From the IMG/VR virus record IMGVR_UViG_3300017971_000072, positions 1 to 52,362 of that record: a stretch of 52,362 bases of DNA. One strand, 5' to 3'. The position numbers and the translations under genes are program-made. Source of the DNA: a virus. How positions within the stretch are numbered: the first letter of the stretch is position 1; every line of letters begins with the position of its first letter. A model generated the notes under the pieces. It did not search any database, was not told where the DNA came from, and saw nothing but the letters and a program-made list of their open reading frames with translations. This document shows, piece by piece, positions 235-37,934 of the stretch.

Positions 235-320
235 TGATCCGCATCGGCGCTTACCTTGTCTGCCCTAATGCGGACTGGGCTGGGCATGGGCGGCTTTATC
301 CGTCATCGCCTAGAGGGTAG
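129..320 (+). CDS. Small zinc-ribbon protein overlapping the methyltransferase end
   Basis: A 63-residue frame whose C-terminal half reads like a real zinc ribbon: CKKCG, then a short beta stretch, then LVCPN with one more cysteine. The basic N-terminal half lies in the +2 frame of the methyltransferase gene and looks less protein-like, so the true start is uncertain; ATG at 129 is the only ATG upstream of the cysteines. It overlaps the convergent SprT-like gene by 25 bases. Function unknown. Confidence 0.45.
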   Translation: MHPDREEQRLLFRDRKRTRPGNRETPRTCKKCGCVMIRIGAYLVCPNADWAGHGRLYPSSPRG

Positions 321-874
321 AGCGTTGTCCCACACGGACACACAGGCAGACCCACTTCAATCCATTTTCGGGTCGTTCGGACCGTGTACCCGCAGTCTCC
401 ACATTCCAGCTTTAGCATGCGAGTCGATTGCTTCTTTGGTGCGTTACTGTGCTTCAGCTCGGCATGCGGGTACTTGCCTATCTCTTTAACGACGCCGCGG
501 AGGCGGGTCTTCAATTCCTTGCCGGCCACAGTGGCAGTCAGCTTACCTTCCAGGCCGAGCCTTCTGGCCAGCGCGCCGAAATGCCTATTGTGTTGCTGAT
601 CGAGGCCAACCGCACAGTGAACCAGCTCATGCACGAGTGTCGCCCCGACCTCGATCGGGTCTTTCAGGAAGGGTGAAATGAAAACCTCGAAGGTGCCGTC
701 TGCGCTTTGCTTGCTGCTCCATGCCTCACCGATTCGCCGCTTCTTCTGGGCCAGTGCTGACTTGCTTGGCCACGAACACGAGGCACGGATCTTCTTAGGC
801 AGCGGGGCGCCGTTCTCACGGAAGTCCGGGCGCAGGAGTTCGATGCACTTTGTTAGCCAGGCTTCTCTGTTCAT
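296..874 (-). CDS. SprT-like zinc metalloprotease domain protein
   Basis: 192 residues. The N-terminal two thirds carry VHELVHCAVG, the HExxH zinc-protease motif, followed by a downstream HNRHFG segment as in SprT/Spartan-like domains. The C-terminal part has CGDCG and CPCG, a zinc ribbon like that at the end of SprT proteins. The family includes proteases for DNA-protein crosslinks, and phage versions are common with no proven target. It is the last gene of the leftward cluster, 2 bases after the stop of the gene at 877-1152. It converges on the end of the early operon. Confidence 0.8.
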   Translation of the reverse strand: MNREAWLTKCIELLRPDFRENGAPLPKKIRASCSWPSKSALAQKKRRIGEAWSSKQSADGTFEVFISPFLKDPIEVGATLVHELVHCAVGLDQQHNRHFGALARRLGLEGKLTATVAGKELKTRLRGVVKEIGKYPHAELKHSNAPKKQSTRMLKLECGDCGYTVRTTRKWIEVGLPVCPCGTTLYPLGDDG

Positions 875-2013: not shown

Positions 2014-2532
2014 TTAGCTGTTGTGGAACACGTAGACGCGCGAGGGGCTCTCCACGCTAAAGCAATCGTTGATGAACAGGTCACGGGCGAAGGCTGCGTA
2101 GTCGATGTAGGCCGCGATATGGTCCGGCAGATCATTGGCGTACAGTTCCTCGAAGACGTGTTCGCCATACGCCTCTTCGCTCTCCCACTCGCCGCAGTAG
2201 GCATCCTCGAAGCCCTCTTCGGTGGCGAAGTCCACGCCAACGTGGTCGGCATAGGCCGCGAACGCTTCTTCGTGTTCGGCGATCAGGGCGCCCAGTTCGG
2301 CGACCCGATCGATATCCTCCGATTCGTCAAGACGGATGGCGCCGAAACCCTCGAAATCGTGGATTGCCCACTCTTCGGCGCCCGGGCAGGGCGAGCGCTT
2401 GAGCATTGCTTGGATTGCCTCCCGGATGGTCTCGGCGTCGGTTGCGTCGATCCACTCTCCGTGGAGGTGGCCGGCATTGTAGCTTGCCAGGCAGGCAACG
2501 TAGATTCTGGGCGGGTCGGTTGTGGTGTTCAT
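2014..2532 (-). CDS. ardA: ArdA-like antirestriction protein
   Basis: 172 residues, close to the usual ArdA length. The opening PRIYVACLASYNAGHLHGEW is the family hallmark. The rest is strongly acidic (many EE/DE pairs), as expected for a protein that mimics B-form DNA and blocks type I restriction-modification enzymes. I chose ATG 2532 over 2541 because GGAG lies at a normal distance from it. With the methyltransferase at 51721 it gives this phage two antirestriction routes. Confidence 0.85.
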   Translation of the reverse strand: MNTTTDPPRIYVACLASYNAGHLHGEWIDATDAETIREAIQAMLKRSPCPGAEEWAIHDFEGFGAIRLDESEDIDRVAELGALIAEHEEAFAAYADHVGVDFATEEGFEDAYCGEWESEEAYGEHVFEELYANDLPDHIAAYIDYAAFARDLFINDCFSVESPSRVYVFHNS

Positions 2533-2565
2533 TAGTTGCATTCTCCAGTGGTGTAAAACAGGGTT

Positions 2566-16455: not shown

Positions 16456-16526
16456 CCCTCGGTAGTTCAACTGGTAGAGCCCACTTCGTAGAAGATGACA
16501 TCTAGGTTCGAGTCCTAGCCGGGGGT
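16456..16526 (+). tRNA. tRNA-like element with a non-standard anticodon arm
   Basis: Acceptor CCCTCGG (16456-16462) pairs with CCGGGGG (16519-16525). TA is followed by a D arm GTTC-AACTGGTA-GAGC. The T arm CTAGG-TTCGAGT-CCTAG is canonical. The region between D and T arms is only 21 bases and cannot form a 5-bp stem with a 7-base loop without mismatches; it folds better as CTTC-GTA-GAAG. If read as an anticodon loop, GTA (Tyr) is the likeliest triplet, with two stem mismatches. No CCA is encoded. The acceptor strand GGGGG also lies where the ribosome site for the gene at 16531 should be. Either a decayed tRNA or a tRNA-mimicking control element. Confidence 0.55.
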
Positions 16527-16530
16527 CTTG

Positions 16531-29445: not shown

Positions 29446-32400
29446 ATGCCACTCGATCTGTCACTACTTGAACTTGACGCCAGAAAGAAGGTTCGTCGCG
29501 CCGGTGGCGTGGACGCTGATGTTCTCCGGTGGGCTGACGAGTACACCGAGACTCATCGTACCGGCGGCGTGGACCTGGATGTCCTTCGGTGGGCTGACAA
29601 GTACATCGAGGAAGCACCGGAGGAAGAGCTGCGACCGAAGCTCACGCCGGCCGAACGCGAGGAAGCTCTCCGCCGGGCCGAGGAAGAGCGGCTACTGGCA
29701 CAGGCCCACAAAGAACTCGGCGAGACGGCGCTCCCGAGCGTCAGGGCGTACTCGATCGAGGCCGGGGCCGATATCGTATCCCCGCTTGCCAGGCTGGCCG
29801 GAAAGGGCGAGTACGCTGACCGGATGGTTCGCTGGGCAGACGCCATCGAGCAGGCTCAACAGAAGCGCGAGGTAGGCGGGCTGATCCCCGATGTCCTCCA
29901 GCGGGGGGTTCGGGGCGCGGGGCGGTCCCTGACTTCCATGGCTGGCGCCGGGATGGTCGGGGGGCCGTACGCTGCCATCGGAGTGGCTGCCGGCCAAGAG
30001 ACCAACAGGGCAATTACGGAGGGCAAGGACGCAGGGCTGCGAGGCACTGAGCTGGCCGGCTATGCAGTCAGTCAGGGGGTTATCGAGGCTGCGCCGGCCA
30101 TGGTAATGCAGCGGGTCGGCTTAGGTGGTACTGAATCCCTGGTGGCCGGTAAGCAGGCCGTGGCATCCGGGGTCCGTGAGGCCCTGAAGCGGATGGGTAT
30201 GGCCGTCGCGGAAGAGGTCCCCGAGGAGCTGGTGACCGAGATCGGCCATGCCGTCGCCGCCAAGGTGGCCGGCGTAGACCCCGAGAGCCTCACGAAGGAC
30301 AGCCTGCGCCAGATCGTCGAGGACACCACTGTCCAGACGGTTCTTACGGTCGGCATGGCCGGGGCGCCCGGCGTGGCGCGGGCCGCCCAGAGCCGGAGGG
30401 CCGCGGCACGGGAAGCGGAGATTGTCGCCCATGCGGAGGAGAAGCGGGCTCCATCCCGGAAGACCTGGAAGCGCTGGGGTATGGACCCGGAAGCCGGGAA
30501 GTCAGCTAAGCAACGGCGGGAAGTCACGCAGCATCTTGCCACGATGCTCAAGGCCGTCAGGGAGGCTGCTACGCAGCTCACAGAGGCTCCTGTGGCGCCG
30601 GTGGCGGAGACGACTCAGGAGCCGGCCATGGGGGCGGAGGCCGCCAGCGAGCCGCCTGCGGCCACTGAGCAAGAGTCAGCGGCCTTGGAATCGGCGGCCG
30701 GGCAGCCGATCGCGCCGGAGGTTACTACTACCCCCGCCAAGAAGCCAGCCGTAGTCCCTCAAGAAGAGGCTGAGCCGGCGGTGGTTCGTCAGGTGGGGCC
30801 GATTGAACATGACTTCCCAGCCGAGGTCAAGGGCACTGGTGAGCGGGTCAGCGCTCGTGAGGTTGTGCGCCGGATCGGGCAAATCTGGGGAGTGCCGATC
30901 CGCGAGGGACGTGTCGGTGGGCGCCGCGGGGGCATCTTTAAGATGAAGCCGCAGGTTGCCCGGCTGGCGCGCGGCGAGGAAGCTTCCGGTGCCGTGGCCG
31001 TCCATGAGGCGATCGGGCACTACCTCGACTCCGAGACGCGAATCCTGAAGGGCGATATCCCGAAAGCAGCGCTGGCTGAGCTTGGGCAGTTTGATTATGA
31101 CCAGACGAAGCAACGGGCTTCTGAAGGGCTTTCTGAGTACCTGCGCGGCTACCTGACCGGCGGGATTGAGATTGCTCGTGGCGGCATCGATGTGAGGGCA
31201 CAGGCGCCGGAGTTCACGCGGCACTTCGAAGCATGGCTCGACAAGCATCCCGATATCAAGCAGAAGATGGTGGCAACCAAGCCACTCTTCGATGCCTACC
31301 GCCGGGCTGGCGCAGTCGGCCGAGTGAAGGGGCAGATCAGTAAGACCGGCCGCGACGTGGCGGAGATACAGCCGCCACTCAAGAAGCGTGTAAATGAGTG
31401 GAAAGAGCTCCTATACACTCGCATTAAGGAAGAGGGTCGGCCGGTCGCGAGGTTCGTCGAGGAGGCGAAGAAGCGCGGGTATATACCCGGCAAGGAAACC
31501 GACCCGTTCGAGGACTACTCAGCGCTGCGTCAGATTGGGCCGCACTTCGCCGCAAATGCGATTGAGCACGGTGTCTTCCGGTTGTCTGACCATCAAATGA
31601 TTGGCCCGTCACTCATCGAAGCGCTGGCCGAGATCGAGGATGACGAGGACTATGAGAATTTCGTGGCCTGGGCTTACGCACGCCACGCAGTTGAGTCATG
31701 GAGTAAAGGTAAAGATCCGGGTATCACTCTCCAGGACGCCCAGGAGACGCAGAAGCAACTCTACGATCCGAGGTATGAGCGAGCTGCCGCGAAGATTACG
31801 GCATTCAATGATGCTCTGATCGATGTACTGGTTGACTCAGGTGCCCTTGAGGTAGCAGAGGCCGCCAAAATCAAAGGGTACTATCAAACGTATATTCCGC
31901 TCCGCAGGGCAAGGCGCAGGGGTGGTGTTGGCGGCGGCAGGAAACTCGTGGACCTGTCAAAGCCGCTCCGGGGCCGTAGTGGTAGCGGCCTCCAAATCAT
32001 TGATCCGCTTGAAGCGACGCTCTCGCGGGCCATTCAGCTCTATGAGCGAGCGGCAAAGCAAGTCGTTACCGACAAGATCGTGCGGGTTGCCAGGGAAACT
32101 AAGGGGCTCGGTATCTGGGTAGAGAGGGTGCCGACAAAGAACCTGCCGACGAAATTCACTATCAGTGAGATCAAGGATCAACTATCCGGGATACTGGCCG
32201 ACGAATTCGGGGAGGGCGGATTCACTAAGGAAGAGATTGACACGATCCTCAGTCAAGTCAATCCGTATACTGCGCTAACCGTCTGGCGCCCGGATCTAAT
32301 GACTGATAAGAGCGGCGAGCCGATCGCCAGGATTATGATCGATGGGCAGCAGCAGTTCTACCAGCTACACCCGGAGCTGCACAAGTCACTCGGCGGGCTC

Positions 32401-34194
32401 GATACGCTTCAGAATCTCGGAATCGTTACGCGGGTCTTCAGGGGACTAAACAAGGCGGTCAAGATCGGGGCAACGCGAGCCAATCCTGACTTCATTCTCA
32501 CGAACGCTCTACGCGATCTGCAAACTTTCCTGATACAGGGAGAAAGGGGACTACGTGGTGTATTCGACCCAGCACATTGGGCGACGGCCTACGTCCTATC
32601 TGAAATGCGCGCCGCATCTGGAGAGGTAGGCGATCCGGTTGTGCGACTCTATAAGCGGATGGGCGGTGAGCTATCCACCTACACTGGCCTCGACCGCGAC
32701 AGACTCAGAAAAGGGGTGCGCCGCGCTAGAGCCGGCCGCCAAGATTACCTAGCGACTGGCTTGAATATCGCCGGGACGCCAGAGGTTGCTTCCCGGCTCG
32801 CGGAGTTCGCGCAGGTGCTCCATCGCGAGGGCTGGCTTGATCGTGCCAAGCGCGGCGAGACACCTCCGATGCCTGTACTTATTCGGGCGATCAACGCCGC
32901 ACATGATGTGACAGTGGATTTCCGGCGCATGGGCAAGTGGGGCCGGTATCTCAACTACTACATCCCGTTCCTGAACGCTCAGCTCGAAGGTTTCGACAAG
33001 ACGGTCAGGACATTCAGAAAGTATCCGGGGCGGACAGCCTTGCGTGTTGTGATGAATCGTATCCCGCTAGCGCTGACTTACTGGTGGTTCCGGCATAACG
33101 ATGACGACTACCGGGAGCGGCCCGAGTGGCAGGACGGGTTCTGGACGTTCCCAGATGAAGATGGCAACCCAATCGTCCGTATTCCGAAGCCACACGAATG
33201 GGGCCTCATTGACTCGGCTATCGAGCGAATGCTAGATGCAATATACGAGAAGGACCCTGAGCCAATTGAGCGGTGGTTTAAGCAGGCTATCGGAACAGTG
33301 CTGCCGAATAACTATCCGGCCGGTATCACGCCGTTGTTCGAGACGATGTTTAATTATTCCTCGTTCGGCAATAGGCCAGTTGTTTCGAGACGACTCCAGA
33401 AACTCGAACCTGTCGATCAATACTACGATCACACAACGAAACTCGCCAGGCAGGCTGCAATGTTCCTTTATGAATACAGCCGCGAACGTGTGAATCTCAG
33501 CCCGGCGAAGATCGATCATTTAGCGGACGGCCTAACGGGCGGCGGGTACCGGAGGTTAGTTAAGCCGGTCGAGAAAGTGGCTGGCAGCGAGGAGGAGTGG
33601 GCGGCGAGCGATGTGCCTGGTTTGGGACAGGTGACATTCAGGGGGGATTACGCAAAATCAGTAGACGACTTCTACGCCGAGCGCGGGCGCCTCGCTCAGC
33701 GCCACGAATCGAACCGGCTACTGGAAAAGCGAGGCAAACCAAAACGAGAGGAAGACCTACCTCGATGGCGTCGCTTCGAGGCAGTGTCCTCGCTGATGAC
33801 TCAAATGTTGAATGAGGCGAAGGCCGGCAGCGCAGAGGAACGCCGCGTGACCGATCTGGCCCTGACGGGTCTGGCGCGTAAGGCACTGGACCGCGAACCG
33901 CTAGAGCGGTATCCGAATCCGCTGGCCGACCCAAGCGGGCTCCCGGAGGTCGTAGCCAAGGTGGTCCGTGACCATATCGGCATGAAGGCTTCCACAGCCT
34001 CCCGGAATATCCGCGGACCGCGTGGATGGATTAACCCGAAGACCAAAGAGACAGTCGAGTCAGCCAGGCAGTACCTCCGTGACATGGATGTGCCGGCCAA
34101 TGAGGCTGCCAAGGCTGCATTCACACGAATGCTGACGCAAGGATATAAGCGGAACACTGCGATGGAGCGTGCGAGAAACTTAGGTAACCTGTAG
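29446..34194 (+). CDS. Giant LPD38-type internal virion/ejection protein with zincin-like motif
   Basis: 1,582 residues. The N-terminus has two tandem copies of GGVD-DVLRWAD-Y. A glycine/alanine-rich helical part (residues ~80-300) could interact with membranes. Residues ~300-450 are a proline/alanine/glutamate-rich linker. AVHEAIGHYLD (His520, Glu521, His525) resembles the HExxGH motif of zincins found in large phage polyvalent proteins; its spacing is one residue longer than HExxH. NPDFILTNALRDLQTFL and the following ~350 residues match the LPD38 domain of such proteins. Likely injected with the genome and acting on the envelope or early host targets. Confidence 0.75.
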   Translation: MPLDLSLLELDARKKVRRAGGVDADVLRWADEYTETHRTGGVDLDVLRWADKYIEEAPEEELRPKLTPAEREEALRRAEEERLLAQAHKELGETALPSVRAYSIEAGADIVSPLARLAGKGEYADRMVRWADAIEQAQQKREVGGLIPDVLQRGVRGAGRSLTSMAGAGMVGGPYAAIGVAAGQETNRAITEGKDAGLRGTELAGYAVSQGVIEAAPAMVMQRVGLGGTESLVAGKQAVASGVREALKRMGMAVAEEVPEELVTEIGHAVAAKVAGVDPESLTKDSLRQIVEDTTVQTVLTVGMAGAPGVARAAQSRRAAAREAEIVAHAEEKRAPSRKTWKRWGMDPEAGKSAKQRREVTQHLATMLKAVREAATQLTEAPVAPVAETTQEPAMGAEAASEPPAATEQESAALESAAGQPIAPEVTTTPAKKPAVVPQEEAEPAVVRQVGPIEHDFPAEVKGTGERVSAREVVRRIGQIWGVPIREGRVGGRRGGIFKMKPQVARLARGEEASGAVAVHEAIGHYLDSETRILKGDIPKAALAELGQFDYDQTKQRASEGLSEYLRGYLTGGIEIARGGIDVRAQAPEFTRHFEAWLDKHPDIKQKMVATKPLFDAYRRAGAVGRVKGQISKTGRDVAEIQPPLKKRVNEWKELLYTRIKEEGRPVARFVEEAKKRGYIPGKETDPFEDYSALRQIGPHFAANAIEHGVFRLSDHQMIGPSLIEALAEIEDDEDYENFVAWAYARHAVESWSKGKDPGITLQDAQETQKQLYDPRYERAAAKITAFNDALIDVLVDSGALEVAEAAKIKGYYQTYIPLRRARRRGGVGGGRKLVDLSKPLRGRSGSGLQIIDPLEATLSRAIQLYERAAKQVVTDKIVRVARETKGLGIWVERVPTKNLPTKFTISEIKDQLSGILADEFGEGGFTKEEIDTILSQVNPYTALTVWRPDLMTDKSGEPIARIMIDGQQQFYQLHPELHKSLGGLDTLQNLGIVTRVFRGLNKAVKIGATRANPDFILTNALRDLQTFLIQGERGLRGVFDPAHWATAYVLSEMRAASGEVGDPVVRLYKRMGGELSTYTGLDRDRLRKGVRRARAGRQDYLATGLNIAGTPEVASRLAEFAQVLHREGWLDRAKRGETPPMPVLIRAINAAHDVTVDFRRMGKWGRYLNYYIPFLNAQLEGFDKTVRTFRKYPGRTALRVVMNRIPLALTYWWFRHNDDDYRERPEWQDGFWTFPDEDGNPIVRIPKPHEWGLIDSAIERMLDAIYEKDPEPIERWFKQAIGTVLPNNYPAGITPLFETMFNYSSFGNRPVVSRRLQKLEPVDQYYDHTTKLARQAAMFLYEYSRERVNLSPAKIDHLADGLTGGGYRRLVKPVEKVAGSEEEWAASDVPGLGQVTFRGDYAKSVDDFYAERGRLAQRHESNRLLEKRGKPKREEDLPRWRRFEAVSSLMTQMLNEAKAGSAEERRVTDLALTGLARKALDREPLERYPNPLADPSGLPEVVAKVVRDHIGMKASTASRNIRGPRGWINPKTKETVESARQYLRDMDVPANEAAKAAFTRMLTQGYKRNTAMERARNLGNL

Positions 34195-34214: not shown

Positions 34215-34589
34215 ATGAAACTGCTGCAACTACTGAACATTGTTCGCCGCATTCCGATTCGTGCGCTGATGGATACGCCGGATGATTTCCGTGACATGAA
34301 GCAAGTCCGCCCATGGGCGATGGCTGTCGTGGACACGCTGCAAGTGCTCGCCGAGTATTCGGTGACTGAGCTGGACGACCAAGCGCTCGCGTTCGTTGAG
34401 CAAGTCCTGAGTAATGCCGAAGTCTGGGATGCGCTTGATGCGCTGACTGCGAAGATCGAGCTTACGGCCACAAAGAATGGCATTGAAAAGTGCGCATTCA
34501 ATCCGATGTGGATTCTCTTCGCAATCCAGGCCGCCCAGGTGTTGCTGAAGATGCTTCGTGAGCGTCGTCAGTTGCGTACCGCTGCATAA
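34215..34589 (+). CDS. Hypothetical helical protein
   Basis: 124 residues. IRALMDTPDDFRDMKQVRPWA and ELDDQALAFVEQVLSN suggest an all-helical domain. The C-terminus (FNPMWILFAIQAAQVLLKML) is an amphipathic or membrane-facing helix with a basic end. It begins the possible envelope/lysis cassette after the ejection protein. GAGGAG precedes the ATG. Confidence 0.6.
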   Translation: MKLLQLLNIVRRIPIRALMDTPDDFRDMKQVRPWAMAVVDTLQVLAEYSVTELDDQALAFVEQVLSNAEVWDALDALTAKIELTATKNGIEKCAFNPMWILFAIQAAQVLLKMLRERRQLRTAA

Positions 34590-34603
34590 GAAAGGAGGGG
34601 CAG

Positions 34604-35572
34604 ATGAAGAGGCTTTTTCTGGCTGTCTGGGTGCTGGCTGTGCTGGCTTTCGCCGGCTGCCCAGACAATAGTGATGTGTGGCCAGTCGAAGATTGGCAGA
34701 TCGAAACTCCCGTGGAAACTCCCGTGGAGCCAGCGCCGCCGGTCGAAGACCCGACTGACGAGTACGGCTACTATCTCGATGCTTGCTGCCGGGTGTACGC
34801 TGGAAACAGCGGTGGTTCCGGTACATGCTTTAAGATCGATGAGCAGTTCGTCTATATCCTGACGTGCCGACACGTCGCCGGAAGCAACAAGACGGCCAAA
34901 GTCGAGTTCTGGGTGGACGGAGTAGTCAGTAAGAAGTACCCAGCGAAAGTCGTGCGCGTTCTGAAAGTTGATGCCGCCGTACTCACTGTGGAGCGCAAGC
35001 TATTTGAGGTACTGCCTAACGCAATCCCGGTCGCAAGAGAAGGAGTAAAATCTGGTGACGTGATTATATCTGTTGGCTGCCCTGGTCTGAGCTGGCAATC
35101 GCTATTCGAGGGTCACGTACTCGGAGAAGTTGGCATGTCCAAGAACTACAATGGAGGCGTTACGAGCTTTACGTTTGTACCTCCACCAAAAGGTGGACGA
35201 TCTGGCTCAGGCATTTTCATGGACGGTAAGATCGTTGGTATCCTCTGGGGTTCCGACAGAAAGAGTACCGGCTATGCCGTTCGGTGTGAGGACTTTGTAA
35301 AAGAAGTCGAATTGATTGGCAGCCGAGAGGATATGCTCGGATACTTCTTTACTGCCGATTGGTGTAATCATTGCAAGGAAGCTAAGGGGATCATCCAGGG
35401 ACTCATTGACTCTGGCCTCGGGATTCAGGTGCTCGACTATGATCACAACACTGTTCTTGCTGAGTTGTATGATATTGGCGCTCTCCCTGCTTATGTCAAT
35501 CGAAAAGGTGATACGCTGTCGGGAGTACGCTCGGCGGATGAGCTGAGAAGGTTCTATGAGGAGGGCCCCTAA
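34604..35572 (+). CDS. Lipoprotein: trypsin-like serine protease fused to thioredoxin-like domain
   Basis: 322 residues. Signal peptide MKRLFLAVWVLAVLAFAGC ends in a lipobox-like site with Cys19, so membrane anchoring is likely. A proline/glutamate linker (36-55) follows. The protease domain shows CRHVAG (His90), KVDAAVL (Asp123) and GGRSGSG (Ser200), the trypsin/HtrA-type triad. Residues about 242-322 are thioredoxin-like, with FFTADWCNHCK (Cys254, Cys257) and a cis-proline site ALPAYV. Both active sites look intact. AAGGAGGGG precedes the ATG; the next gene overlaps by one base. It would act outside the inner membrane on envelope proteins or disulfides. I know no phage family with this fusion. 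Confidence 0.8.
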   Translation: MKRLFLAVWVLAVLAFAGCPDNSDVWPVEDWQIETPVETPVEPAPPVEDPTDEYGYYLDACCRVYAGNSGGSGTCFKIDEQFVYILTCRHVAGSNKTAKVEFWVDGVVSKKYPAKVVRVLKVDAAVLTVERKLFEVLPNAIPVAREGVKSGDVIISVGCPGLSWQSLFEGHVLGEVGMSKNYNGGVTSFTFVPPPKGGRSGSGIFMDGKIVGILWGSDRKSTGYAVRCEDFVKEVELIGSREDMLGYFFTADWCNHCKEAKGIIQGLIDSGLGIQVLDYDHNTVLAELYDIGALPAYVNRKGDTLSGVRSADELRRFYEEGP

Positions 35573-35841
35573 TGCGGTTCGCAGCCTACAGCGTCCTCTC
35601 ATCTACGGCTTTGCTGGCCGCCGCGGACGCCGCGGGCCCGGCGGCCGGACTCGCTCCGCTCGTCGTCCAGGGCGGCGCCTTGGCGATCCTCGGGAGCGTC
35701 GTCTGGTATCTGCTAACTAAGACCTTCCCGGCCCACACGGCGGCCCTGAAGGACCAGCGGGAGGCATTCCTTCGGACGCTGGAGGCGGAGCGCAAGGAGA
35801 CTCGCGATCTAATCACGGCACTCGTTGGCCGCGATCGTTGA
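35572..35841 (+). CDS. Holin-like membrane protein with charged tail
   Basis: 89 residues. A signal-like hydrophobic start (YSVLSSTALLAAADAAG), one clear transmembrane helix (LVVQGGALAILGSVVWYLLT) and a charged helical C-terminus (EAFLRTLEAERKETRDL). The build resembles class II-type holins or phage membrane accessory proteins. One-base overlap with the protease-thioredoxin lipoprotein suggests they work together. Confidence 0.6.
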   Translation: MRFAAYSVLSSTALLAAADAAGPAAGLAPLVVQGGALAILGSVVWYLLTKTFPAHTAALKDQREAFLRTLEAERKETRDLITALVGRDR

Positions 35842-35869
35842 CACAGACATTCCAGCTCGTCCGGATTTC

Positions 35870-35900
35870 GAGCCGGCCAACGATTGGCCGGCTCATTCTT
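35870..35900 (+). terminator. Terminator-like hairpin ending the late operon
   Basis: GAGCCGGCC (35870-35878) and GGCCGGCTC (35886-35894) form a perfect 9-bp stem with a 7-base loop, followed by ATTCTTT. It lies 29 bases after the stop at 35841 and probably ends the late transcript. Confidence 0.6.
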
Positions 35901-35913
35901 TGCGCGGTATACT
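35884..35913 (+). promoter_or_regulatory. Candidate promoter for the secreted-protein gene
   Basis: TTGGCC (35884-35889), 18-base spacer, TATACT (35908-35913). The -10 box is good; the -35 overlaps the terminator stem and is weak. The gene at 35949 starts 36 bases after the -10 box. Confidence 0.4.
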
Positions 35914-35948
35914 TGAGTGGGGCAATGACCCAAGAAAGAGGCGACGAC

Positions 35949-36422
35949 ATGAGGCGGTATGTATTGATAGTGGTCGTGCTCGTTGCAGTGTTTACGCGTT
36001 TCGCACCGGCAGAGGAAAACGCTTCTGTATACTTGAATCGTCATCGGCTTCGTGGCCTTGAACATGTGTCTGTGTGGATTGATGACGGGAATGCAAAGCA
36101 GAAAGACCAACTGATAGCCGAAGTTATAGCTAGGCTGCGGCTTGTCGGAATCAAAGCCACTTCCGCGTATGATTCAGCGGCCGACGCACCGATATTGATG
36201 CTTGGGCGACTCAACGCCAGACTCGTTGAATTCGGTCAGTTCGAGCGAAGCGTTGACCGTGAGCGGGTCGCACGCGAGCTGCCGGCCACGACCTGGGCGT
36301 CTCGCCAATATCGCTCAACTCACGGAAACTGGCAGTCTGTTCGTGACACCGCTCACCTGGCAACCAAGGAGTTCATTGAAGACTGGATTGCCGCTAATCT
36401 CACACTGCCTGATGCCGAATAG
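35949..36422 (+). CDS. Secreted protein, unknown
   Basis: 157 residues. The signal peptide RRYVLIVVVLVAVFTRFAPA is clear. The mature part has VSVWIDDGNAKQKDQLIAEV and VARELPATTWASRQYRSTHG, with no known enzyme motif. It has its own promoter-like sequence, so it could be expressed from the prophage (conversion or superinfection immunity) rather than only late. A 22-bp palindrome covers its stop codon. Could alternatively be a periplasmic lysis factor. Confidence 0.55.
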   Translation: MRRYVLIVVVLVAVFTRFAPAEENASVYLNRHRLRGLEHVSVWIDDGNAKQKDQLIAEVIARLRLVGIKATSAYDSAADAPILMLGRLNARLVEFGQFERSVDRERVARELPATTWASRQYRSTHGNWQSVRDTAHLATKEFIEDWIAANLTLPDAE

Positions 36423-36435: not shown

Positions 36436-36764
36436 GAGCAAACAGCGCGGGTGTCAAGACACCCGGTACCTGGCAAAATCTGCTCATTTCTGTCACTTAC
36501 GGCGATTCAGGCCGTCGCCGTAAGTCTTTGTGTGACAAGCACTTTACTGTAATGCCAAAGAAAACAGTTGCAGGTGTTGGGATCGGAGGATATACTTGAA
36601 TGGTGCGCCGACACCTGTTGACAAACAAGGCTTTATGTGAACCGGGCAAGTCGGCTAAACAACGAAAGACACCCGTTTGACACCCAGCCGTTCTGTAGTG
36701 GTAGTCAATCAAGGAAAGACTGCCGCCAAAACAAGGTACACTTGATAATCGGGATGCAATTGCG
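36423..36764. other. Repeat-rich region upstream of integrase, candidate attP
   Basis: No gene in these 342 bases. It holds a hairpin CGGGTGTC-AA-GACACCCG (36448-36465); an 11-bp inverted repeat ACTTACGGCGA/TCGCCGTAAGT with a 9-base spacer (36495-36525); and scattered GACACC(C)G and TTGACA(C) motifs (around 36610-36622 and 36668-36684) that could be integrase arm sites. Phage attachment sites usually adjoin the integrase gene, so attP most likely lies here. The core cannot be fixed without the host sequence. Confidence 0.5.
36568..36596 (+). promoter_or_regulatory. Candidate integrase promoter
   Basis: TTGCAG (36568-36573), 17-base spacer, TATACT (36591-36596). Both boxes and the spacing fit a sigma-70-type promoter. 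The integrase ATG is 168 bases downstream, leaving a long leader within the repeat region. Confidence 0.5.
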
Positions 36765-37934
36765 ATGAATGCAGTAATGCAAAGACGAGTGCGAGAGTAT
36801 CGAGCCTGGAAGAAGGGGCACCCGAGCTACCCACTAACCGTCCACCCGAGCGGTCGCTGGTCGAAGAAGATCCGCGGGAAGACTCACTACTTCGGTAAGC
36901 TCGACGACCCGCAAGCCGCGCTCAAGCTTTGGGACAGCGAACGAGAATACCTCGAAGCTGGCCTGGAGCCGCCGACCTGGAATGATGGCCTGACTGTTGG
37001 CGAGCTGGCCGCCAGGCACCTGGCTGATGTGGACAGCAGGATCGCCGCCGGCCGGATGAAGTTCAGGTCGCGATCAGGTTACGCTGTGGCCGGCAAGTTG
37101 TTCGACGACGCTCGCCTCTCCGGGATGCCTGTTAGCTCTATCGGGCCCGAGCATTTCACCGTGCTTCAGAGCATCCTGGAGCGATCCGGGCGCGGCCTGC
37201 GGACCCAGAAGAACCTCATTATTGCCATCAAGGTCATTTTCAACTGGGGGCGGCAGATGGGGATGATCGATCGGGAAATTCGCTACGGCCCGCGGTTCGT
37301 GGCGCCGCCGCTCAATGCCATCGAGGCCGAGCAAGAGCAGAATGGTGCCTGTCGTTTCCTGGACCGGGAGCTGATTCTCACGGCGATGGATCGTGCAAAC
37401 CCCAAGATGAAGGTCGCGATTCTTCTTGGGATCAACTGCGGTTTCTACCCAGGAGATACTGTCGCCATCCCTATGGATCGCCTGCACCTGGACGGCGAGA
37501 TTCCCTACCACGACTTCCGGCGCGTCAAGAACAGCCAGCGCCGGATGGCAGCATTGTGGCCGGAGACAGTGGAGGCGATTCGGGATTACCGGGACAACCA
37601 TCGCAGGCCGGCCAACTCATTTGAGCAGCGATTACTGCTGTCCAGGTGGCGGGAGGGTTACGGGAAACGTGGGGGCCTTGTGCTACTAAAGTCGTTCAGC
37701 CTCTTACTGGACTCAATCGGGGATCGCCCCAGGGCAGTGAGCCTAGGGAGCCTACGTCACACGTACGGGACCGTTGTGGACCTCGTGCCAGATCAGGCCA
37801 TGATCGATCTAACGATGGGGCACACGAACAAGTCACTCCAGAAACGTGTCTATTCGCAACTCAATCTCCAAGAGCTAGAAAGGCTAGCAGTCGTCGCCGG
37901 CACAGTGCGGAATTGGCTGTTCAATGGAGGCTAA
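36765..37934 (+). CDS. int: Tyrosine recombinase integrase
   Basis: 389 residues. The N-terminal arm/SAM-like region has KKIRGKTHYFGKLDDPQAAL, a block I associate with planctomycete integrases. In the catalytic domain I see Lys255 (RRVKNSQRR), SLRHTYG (Arg331), MGHTNKSL (His352) and RVYSQL (Tyr363, nucleophile). The usual first catalytic arginine is missing: box I reads GINCGFYPGD with Phe227 in its place, a variation also present in planctomycete relatives as far as I recall. It would integrate the phage into the host chromosome. Neighbouring repeats and excisionase-like gene fit. Confidence 0.85.
   Translation: MNAVMQRRVREYRAWKKGHPSYPLTVHPSGRWSKKIRGKTHYFGKLDDPQAALKLWDSEREYLEAGLEPPTWNDGLTVGELAARHLADVDSRIAAGRMKFRSRSGYAVAGKLFDDARLSGMPVSSIGPEHFTVLQSILERSGRGLRTQKNLIIAIKVIFNWGRQMGMIDREIRYGPRFVAPPLNAIEAEQEQNGACRFLDRELILTAMDRANPKMKVAILLGINCGFYPGDTVAIPMDRLHLDGEIPYHDFRRVKNSQRRMAALWPETVEAIRDYRDNHRRPANSFEQRLLLSRWREGYGKRGGLVLLKSFSLLLDSIGDRPRAVSLGSLRHTYGTVVDLVPDQAMIDLTMGHTNKSLQKRVYSQLNLQELERLAVVAGTVRNWLFNGG

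Follow-up and report, generated by a model that had tools for sequence, protein, structure and literature searches.

A lipoprotein-type protease-thioredoxin fusion in a candidate lysis cassette of an environmental phage

The holin-endolysin-spanin cassettes of tailed phages lie at the end of the late operon or before terminase, the latter being where lambda keeps its lysis genes, and combine small membrane proteins with envelope enzymes. The locus described here, located in a stretch of 52,362 nt representing one IMG/VR virus record (IMGVR_UViG_3300017971_000072, positions 1 to 52,362; hereafter the window), shares these traits. In contrast to such cassettes, the window has no recognisable peptidoglycan hydrolase, and a protease and a thioredoxin, fused in one protein, are the main enzymes. 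In the literature searched, neither a published description of such a cassette nor a known lysis cassette with a protease-thioredoxin pair was found. The fusion protein resembles MarP (Rv3671c) and DegS/HtrA in fold, catalytic triad, membrane tether, and periplasmic location (PMC6628586), the last of which is predicted for the fusion. Unlike them, it is phage-encoded within a lysis-type cassette, is fused to a thioredoxin, lacks a PDZ domain, and is only about 19-24% identical. Thioredoxin, DsbC-like, and PDI domains share the CxxC motif, the cis-proline, and the fold with that of the fusion, which differs in being the C-terminal domain of a protease and in its CNHC active site. Disulfide chemistry in phage lysis control has a precedent in Lyz of P1, at least in the form in which PMC9025707 cites it; unlike in this muramidase, the redox domain of the fusion is a separate catalytic fold. 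The Planctopirus limnophila plasmid pPLIM01 (genes 21-2218) carries a lipoprotein/holin-like gene followed by a protease gene just upstream of terminase, and this protease is homologous to the one occupying the slot of the fusion in a relative of the window (L082). However, it is papain-like, not trypsin-like, no thioredoxin was seen, and the region is not annotated as a lysis cassette.

Anatomy of the cassette and the fusion protein

The cassette (34215-35841; Table 1) closes the series of late genes, which run rightward. It follows the LPD38 gene after 20 bases, and its first two genes are 14 bases apart. The fusion ORF (34604-35572) starts with ATG, has AGGAGG upstream, and overlaps with its stop the start of the third gene by 1 base (TAATG), in agreement with the original prediction. 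No promoter or terminator was found between the late genes and the cassette, whereas a terminator hairpin (dG -22.3 kcal/mol, z -3.97) directly follows it; the cassette occupies the late-operon-end or pre-terminase position by which lysis cassettes are recognised. The original prediction had also counted the next gene (35949-36422) as a member. Because this gene lies behind the strong terminator, 107 bases downstream of the cassette, and because no homologues were found in related phages, it was placed outside the cassette and a lysis role for it was dropped. It encodes a secreted 157-aa protein, has its own promoter-like site (35884-35913), and is bracketed by the closing hairpin of the cassette and another terminator-like hairpin (36495-36525), thus reading as a separate moron-like unit. 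The LPD38 protein upstream is probably a virion or ejection protein; it contains a HEAIGH zincin-like motif and may itself be a metalloprotease.

Table 1. Coordinates of the cassette, its domains, and neighbouring features in the window.
Feature	Position	Strand	Basis or remark
First cassette gene, 124 aa, C-terminal hydrophobic segment, candidate holin/membrane protein	34215..34589	+	homologues in same slot
Protease-thioredoxin fusion, lipoprotein-type, 322 aa	34604..35572	+	Pfam, AlphaFold2, alignment
Signal peptide with lipobox-like FAGC, Cys19	34604..34660	+	sequence; relatives LPGC or one TM
Trypsin_2 domain	34820..35242	+	Pfam; codons H90 34871-34873, D123 34970-34972, S200 35201-35203
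Thioredoxin-fold domain	35324..35554	+	Pfam; codons CNHC 35363-35374, cis-Pro295 35486-35488
Holin-like 89-aa membrane protein	35572..35841	+	one TM, charged C-terminal helix; homologues in same slot
Rho-independent terminator-like hairpin closing the cassette	35870..35894	+	11-bp stem and T tract
Upstream late gene, 1582-aa LPD38 large polyvalent protein; context, outside the cassette	29446..34194	+	Pfam LPD38 7e-30
Tyrosine-recombinase-like integrase; context marker for finding sister phages	36765..37934	+	53-63% identical homologues downstream of slot

The lipoprotein signal, the trypsin-type triad, and the thioredoxin-like CNHC domain, all foreseen from the sequence, were recovered. The N-terminal hydrophobic segment ends in FAGC, with F at -3 in place of the usual L; the single TM found instead of LPGC among the relatives is that of L071. 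Pfam matched Trypsin_2 (residues 73-213; E = 1.3e-15, with a separate value of 1.6e-16) and Thioredoxin (residues 241-317; E = 1.7e-5), both above the curated cut-off. The His-Asp-Ser triad with GxSG in a two-barrel fold was found by Pfam, by alignment, and by AlphaFold2 combined with Foldseek, and H90, D123, and S200 were invariant (22/22 in a 51-row alignment). In the same alignment, C254, C257, and P295 were kept in 34/34. The thioredoxin motif (W253-CNHC-257) has its CxxC at the helix start, with the cis-proline opposite, in a thioredoxin fold; the domain matches solved thioredoxins by sequence and is a short form resembling glutaredoxin, in which the Pfam model's first strand is missing.

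Structure prediction, which had been proposed as a check, returned both folds: the AlphaFold2 model from 51 sequences (mean pLDDT 87.1; a model from 5 sequences, pLDDT 41, was discarded) shows two folded domains, preceded by a proline-rich linker of low confidence. The best solved structures retrieved with this model by Foldseek were MarP/Rv3671c, as the top match (E 3e-12, 19% identity), and DegS/HtrA proteases. A PDZ domain was sought by Pfam and not found, the C-terminal domain being the thioredoxin. Weak matches to Pfam S32 and to PHROG "virion structural" were taken as chance or as reflecting the shared chymotrypsin fold. The fusion is very probably an active exported protease, and its thioredoxin is likely a working redox domain. 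The window-type protease has a further cysteine (Cys88) two residues before the catalytic His, and Cys62 and Cys159 are invariant in the fusions. The fused thioredoxins carry CNHC, CKYC, CRFC, or CQYC, the unfused proteins CGPC; the fused motifs resemble oxidase/isomerase motifs more closely than CGPC.

Both flanking genes encode small membrane proteins of conserved position, for which no holin family match was found. The product of the first had no Pfam match and only a weak one to phrog_2738 (E 5e-4), a family of unknown function; homologues 31-39% identical occupy the same slot in L072, L073, L074, and L082, and an 81-aa holin-like TM protein takes its place in L071 and L177. The third gene product, also without a Pfam family, has homologues 44-51% identical in the same slot of L071, L072, L074, L082, and G003.

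Related phages and the recurrent module

A tblastn search of INPHARED with the window protein yielded no relatives, a peptide-pattern scan based on this single protein missed all viral ones, and those cassette parts that were searched for were absent from 50,697 catalogued phage records. Relatives were reached only through terminase (25 viral loci), integrase (15), and alignments; a marker membrane protein led to 56 loci, and protease alignments gave 35 locus listings, which partly overlap. The marker family (L039:747-1154 and 54 homologues) comprises small membrane proteins with an invariant Y-[SA]-[VI]-G-[DN]-Y motif and had no Pfam or PHROG match. That homologues might turn out to be unrelated host chromosomal genes was not borne out, since genome contigs contained only generic HtrA-type proteases of about 30% local identity.

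Five further contigs (L071, L072, L074, L177, and L073, of which L075 is nearly a copy) keep the fusion over its full length at 48-57% identity; in each it follows the large protein and, wherever the contig shows it, precedes the integrase. Other relatives fill the slot differently. In G003, a permuted NlpC/P60-like hydrolase is joined there by a trypsin with a TM anchor, the marker, a thioredoxin encoded as a lipoprotein of its own, and the homologue of the third cassette gene. G002 and G008 likewise have the hydrolase and the marker, together with a membrane protein, a thioredoxin-like protein, and a putative cysteine protease. In L082, the papain-like protease lies between homologues of the two flanking membrane proteins. 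The profile of the sister hydrolase matched PDB 3kw0, a YiiX-like permuted enzyme (E 5e-4), and Pfam C92 (4.6e-6). The cysteine protease was labelled C39-like from its Cys/His/Asn motifs only and had no Pfam, PHROG, or PDB match; trxdeg, our own reading of thioredoxin-like sequences without CxxC, had no PDB match either. Proteases, thioredoxins, and the marker carry a signal or TM, whereas the hydrolase is without signal, like an endolysin. Within the protease family, an N-terminal hydrophobic segment was present in 19/25 and a C-terminal TM in 13/25 members, with signal, lipobox, or TM anchors throughout.

Many phages have homologous modules immediately ahead of terminase in which holin-like genes accompany the permuted NlpC/P60-like hydrolase; in most other lineages terminase follows the module at a distance of 2-4 genes. 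Close relatives (G002, at L037:12572-13492, and G001, G005, and G008) encode a further, distinct family of secreted trypsin-like proteases between their small and large terminase genes; the window does not have it.

The marker was found at 48 non-redundant loci, 33 of them flanked by 2.5 kb or more on the upstream and 1.5 kb or more on the downstream side. Among these 33, the hydrolase was present in 29, a protease in 26, a thioredoxin-like protein in 30, and all three in 23; some of the labels derive from HMMs built on a few of the same loci, and recall is therefore not independent. As a control, each label was found no more than once among the 230 genes lying further than five genes from the marker. 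A conserved hydrolase-protease-thioredoxin-membrane cassette is common to dozens of environmental phages.

The fusions of the window type form one clade (93/93), outside of which L233 has the reverse order, thioredoxin then trypsin. For papain-like proteases (GxC, HQM, and NSW(G)-type motifs), a thioredoxin was encoded at most two genes away in 8 of 26 non-redundant loci, compared with 1 of 311 background genes. Trypsin-like, papain-like, and possibly metalloproteases each recur adjoining or fused to a thioredoxin, and this repeated assembly with unrelated proteases argues for a joint function of the two. At L086:2783-3865, immediately behind a trypsin with a TM anchor, a protein with a metalloprotease-like HELTHD motif is fused to a thioredoxin bearing WCGPC.

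The original prediction that the genome has no recognisable endolysin held. No endolysin family was among the best 25 of 33 Pfam families matched by the 59 window genes (E<=0.01), and no permuted NlpC/P60 homologue was found in the window. Among 93 proteins of G002, G003, and G008 chosen because they have no window homologue, the only relevant matches were C92, trypsin, and thioredoxin. The window may encode a highly divergent endolysin. Since it lacks the NlpC/P60-like hydrolase of the sister phages, the window lineage would have to manage with no known wall hydrolase, or with a hydrolase that has diverged beyond the reach of Pfam.

Proposed lysis role and alternative functions

Conserved active sites, the export signal, operon position, synteny, the recurrent protease-thioredoxin-hydrolase linkage, and the lack of a recognisable endolysin together make lysis, or breach of the envelope, the probable role of the cassette. 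The fusion would be exported and lipid-anchored in the periplasm (by TM segments in sister phages), where its serine protease would cut envelope proteins while its thioredoxin domain would exchange or reduce disulfides, rendering cross-linked protein soluble; the two membrane proteins would act as a holin-type trigger. The preferred reading takes 34215-35841 for the lysis cassette of a temperate phage, expressed late and breaching the envelope by cutting and reducing its disulfide-bonded protein; opinion on this reading as a whole is evenly balanced, and we infer its lysis, substrate, holin role, and host. The lysis or envelope reading of the original prediction is supported in part: both domains are real, no endolysin family was found, the cassette closes the late operon, and homologous modules elsewhere carry hydrolase and holin-like genes ahead of terminase; the 35949 gene is not a member. 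Against the preferred reading count the lack of the sister hydrolase in the window lineage, the two flanking proteins that match no holin family, and the oxidase/isomerase-like motifs of the fused thioredoxins. Outside the inner membrane, a thioredoxin would also have to be supplied with electrons. Moreover, the permuted NlpC/P60-like family of the sister phages may cut acyl-protein bonds, not peptidoglycan (PMC3142127).

The main rival of a wall-dissolving cassette is an activator, in which the protease would cleave and thereby activate a wall hydrolase of the host (or of a sister phage) and the thioredoxin would serve as redox switch or as folding aid for the protease. The periplasmic protease MarP, the best structural match, sets the precedent by cleaving the NlpC/P60 enzyme RipA (reviewed in PMC6628586), and many sister cassettes encode a permuted NlpC/P60-like protein. 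Cys88 next to the catalytic His and the invariant Cys62 and Cys159 would suit redox control, as would P1 Lyz, which PMC9025707 cites as an endolysin controlled by disulfide isomerisation. However, the MarP match is a general match to the HtrA fold, with hundreds of similar ones, the window contains no phage hydrolase to activate, and unrelated protease classes adjoining a thioredoxin fit bulk degradation better than one specific cleavage. Activation is therefore considered unlikely.

The lipoprotein anchor and the neighbouring integrase, a frequent site of moron genes, would also suit superinfection exclusion or lysogenic conversion, with the envelope-anchored protease of the lysogen destroying incoming phage proteins or remodelling receptors. 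This is quite improbable, because no promoter or terminator splits the cassette from the late genes and the terminator only follows it, because other lineages have this module ahead of terminase with no integrase anywhere near, and because it travels with hydrolase and holin-like genes. Slightly less credible still is periplasmic quality control, a combination of HtrA and Dsb-like duties in which the module would fold or clear disulfide-containing phage or host proteins without breaching the envelope: the HtrA-type fold and the similarity of CNHC, CRFC, and CKYC to disulfide isomerases are in its favour, but the fusion lacks a PDZ domain, and the hydrolase, the holin-like genes, and the lysis-type position would be left unexplained. 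That a virion or prohead protease was misread as an envelope enzyme can practically be dismissed, even though homologous trypsins also adjoin terminase, portal, and head genes, because the family is anchored throughout by signal peptide, lipobox, or TM and exported proteins cannot act in head assembly.

Host, envelope chemistry, and further observations

If the cassette breaches the envelope, its most likely substrate would be the protein wall reported for Planctomycetales, which contains cysteine-rich YTV proteins and disulfide bonds, in an order most of whose members miss peptidoglycan genes; peptidoglycan was nevertheless reported in some planctomycetes, and the nature of the wall is disputed (PMC8567305, PMC2754498; for wall chemistry also PMC3035269). 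To open a wall of this kind, a protease coupled to disulfide exchange would be the fitting tool. As the main target, a disulfide-bonded protein wall is proposed tentatively.

The planctomycete idea of the original prediction gained one independent link. Compared with 72,556 plasmids, the papain-like protease of L082 matched only pPLIM01 (E 7e-9), a phage-plasmid with terminase, portal, and capsid genes, in which the protease gene lies just before HNH and terminase; the lipoprotein gene preceding it showed weak similarity too (E 0.013). No endolysin family was found among the hypothetical genes of pPLIM01. Within its first 8,000 positions (L237, NC_014149, 1-8000), a ClpP-type protease is also encoded, and the pre-terminase genes look like a holin/lipoprotein and a papain-like protease. 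A planctomycete host for the phage group is thereby supported only indirectly and, for the window itself, at one remove. Integrase and marker gene were absent from 388 Verrucomicrobiota genomes, neither matched phages or plasmids, and no phage genes are annotated in the first 50 kb of Isosphaera pISOP01, in which annotated genes only were considered.

Dissolution of a disulfide-bonded protein sacculus by protease and thioredoxin, instead of or besides peptidoglycan cutting and paired repeatedly with unrelated proteases, is a possible, if somewhat doubtful, new class of phage lysis for protein-walled bacteria. If proteolysis and reduction of a protein wall were real, phages of a little-studied group would have evolved a new, protein-targeted class of lysis system. 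This would bear on the disputed planctomycete wall, since whatever structure truly gives the cell its coherence is the one that a phage has to break; the question would become testable with one gene cassette, and further enzymes for opening lysozyme-resistant bacteria would be at hand. Whether or not the wall hypothesis holds, a cassette conserved across dozens of environmental phages is worth naming.

Elsewhere in the window, a tRNA-Tyr gene (gta; 16456-16527) is located within the structural genes, and 296-874 (-) encodes a SprT-like HELVH motif. One window gene matched the ArdA antirestriction family (Pfam 1.8e-41), which on our reading is the gene at 2014-2541 (-).
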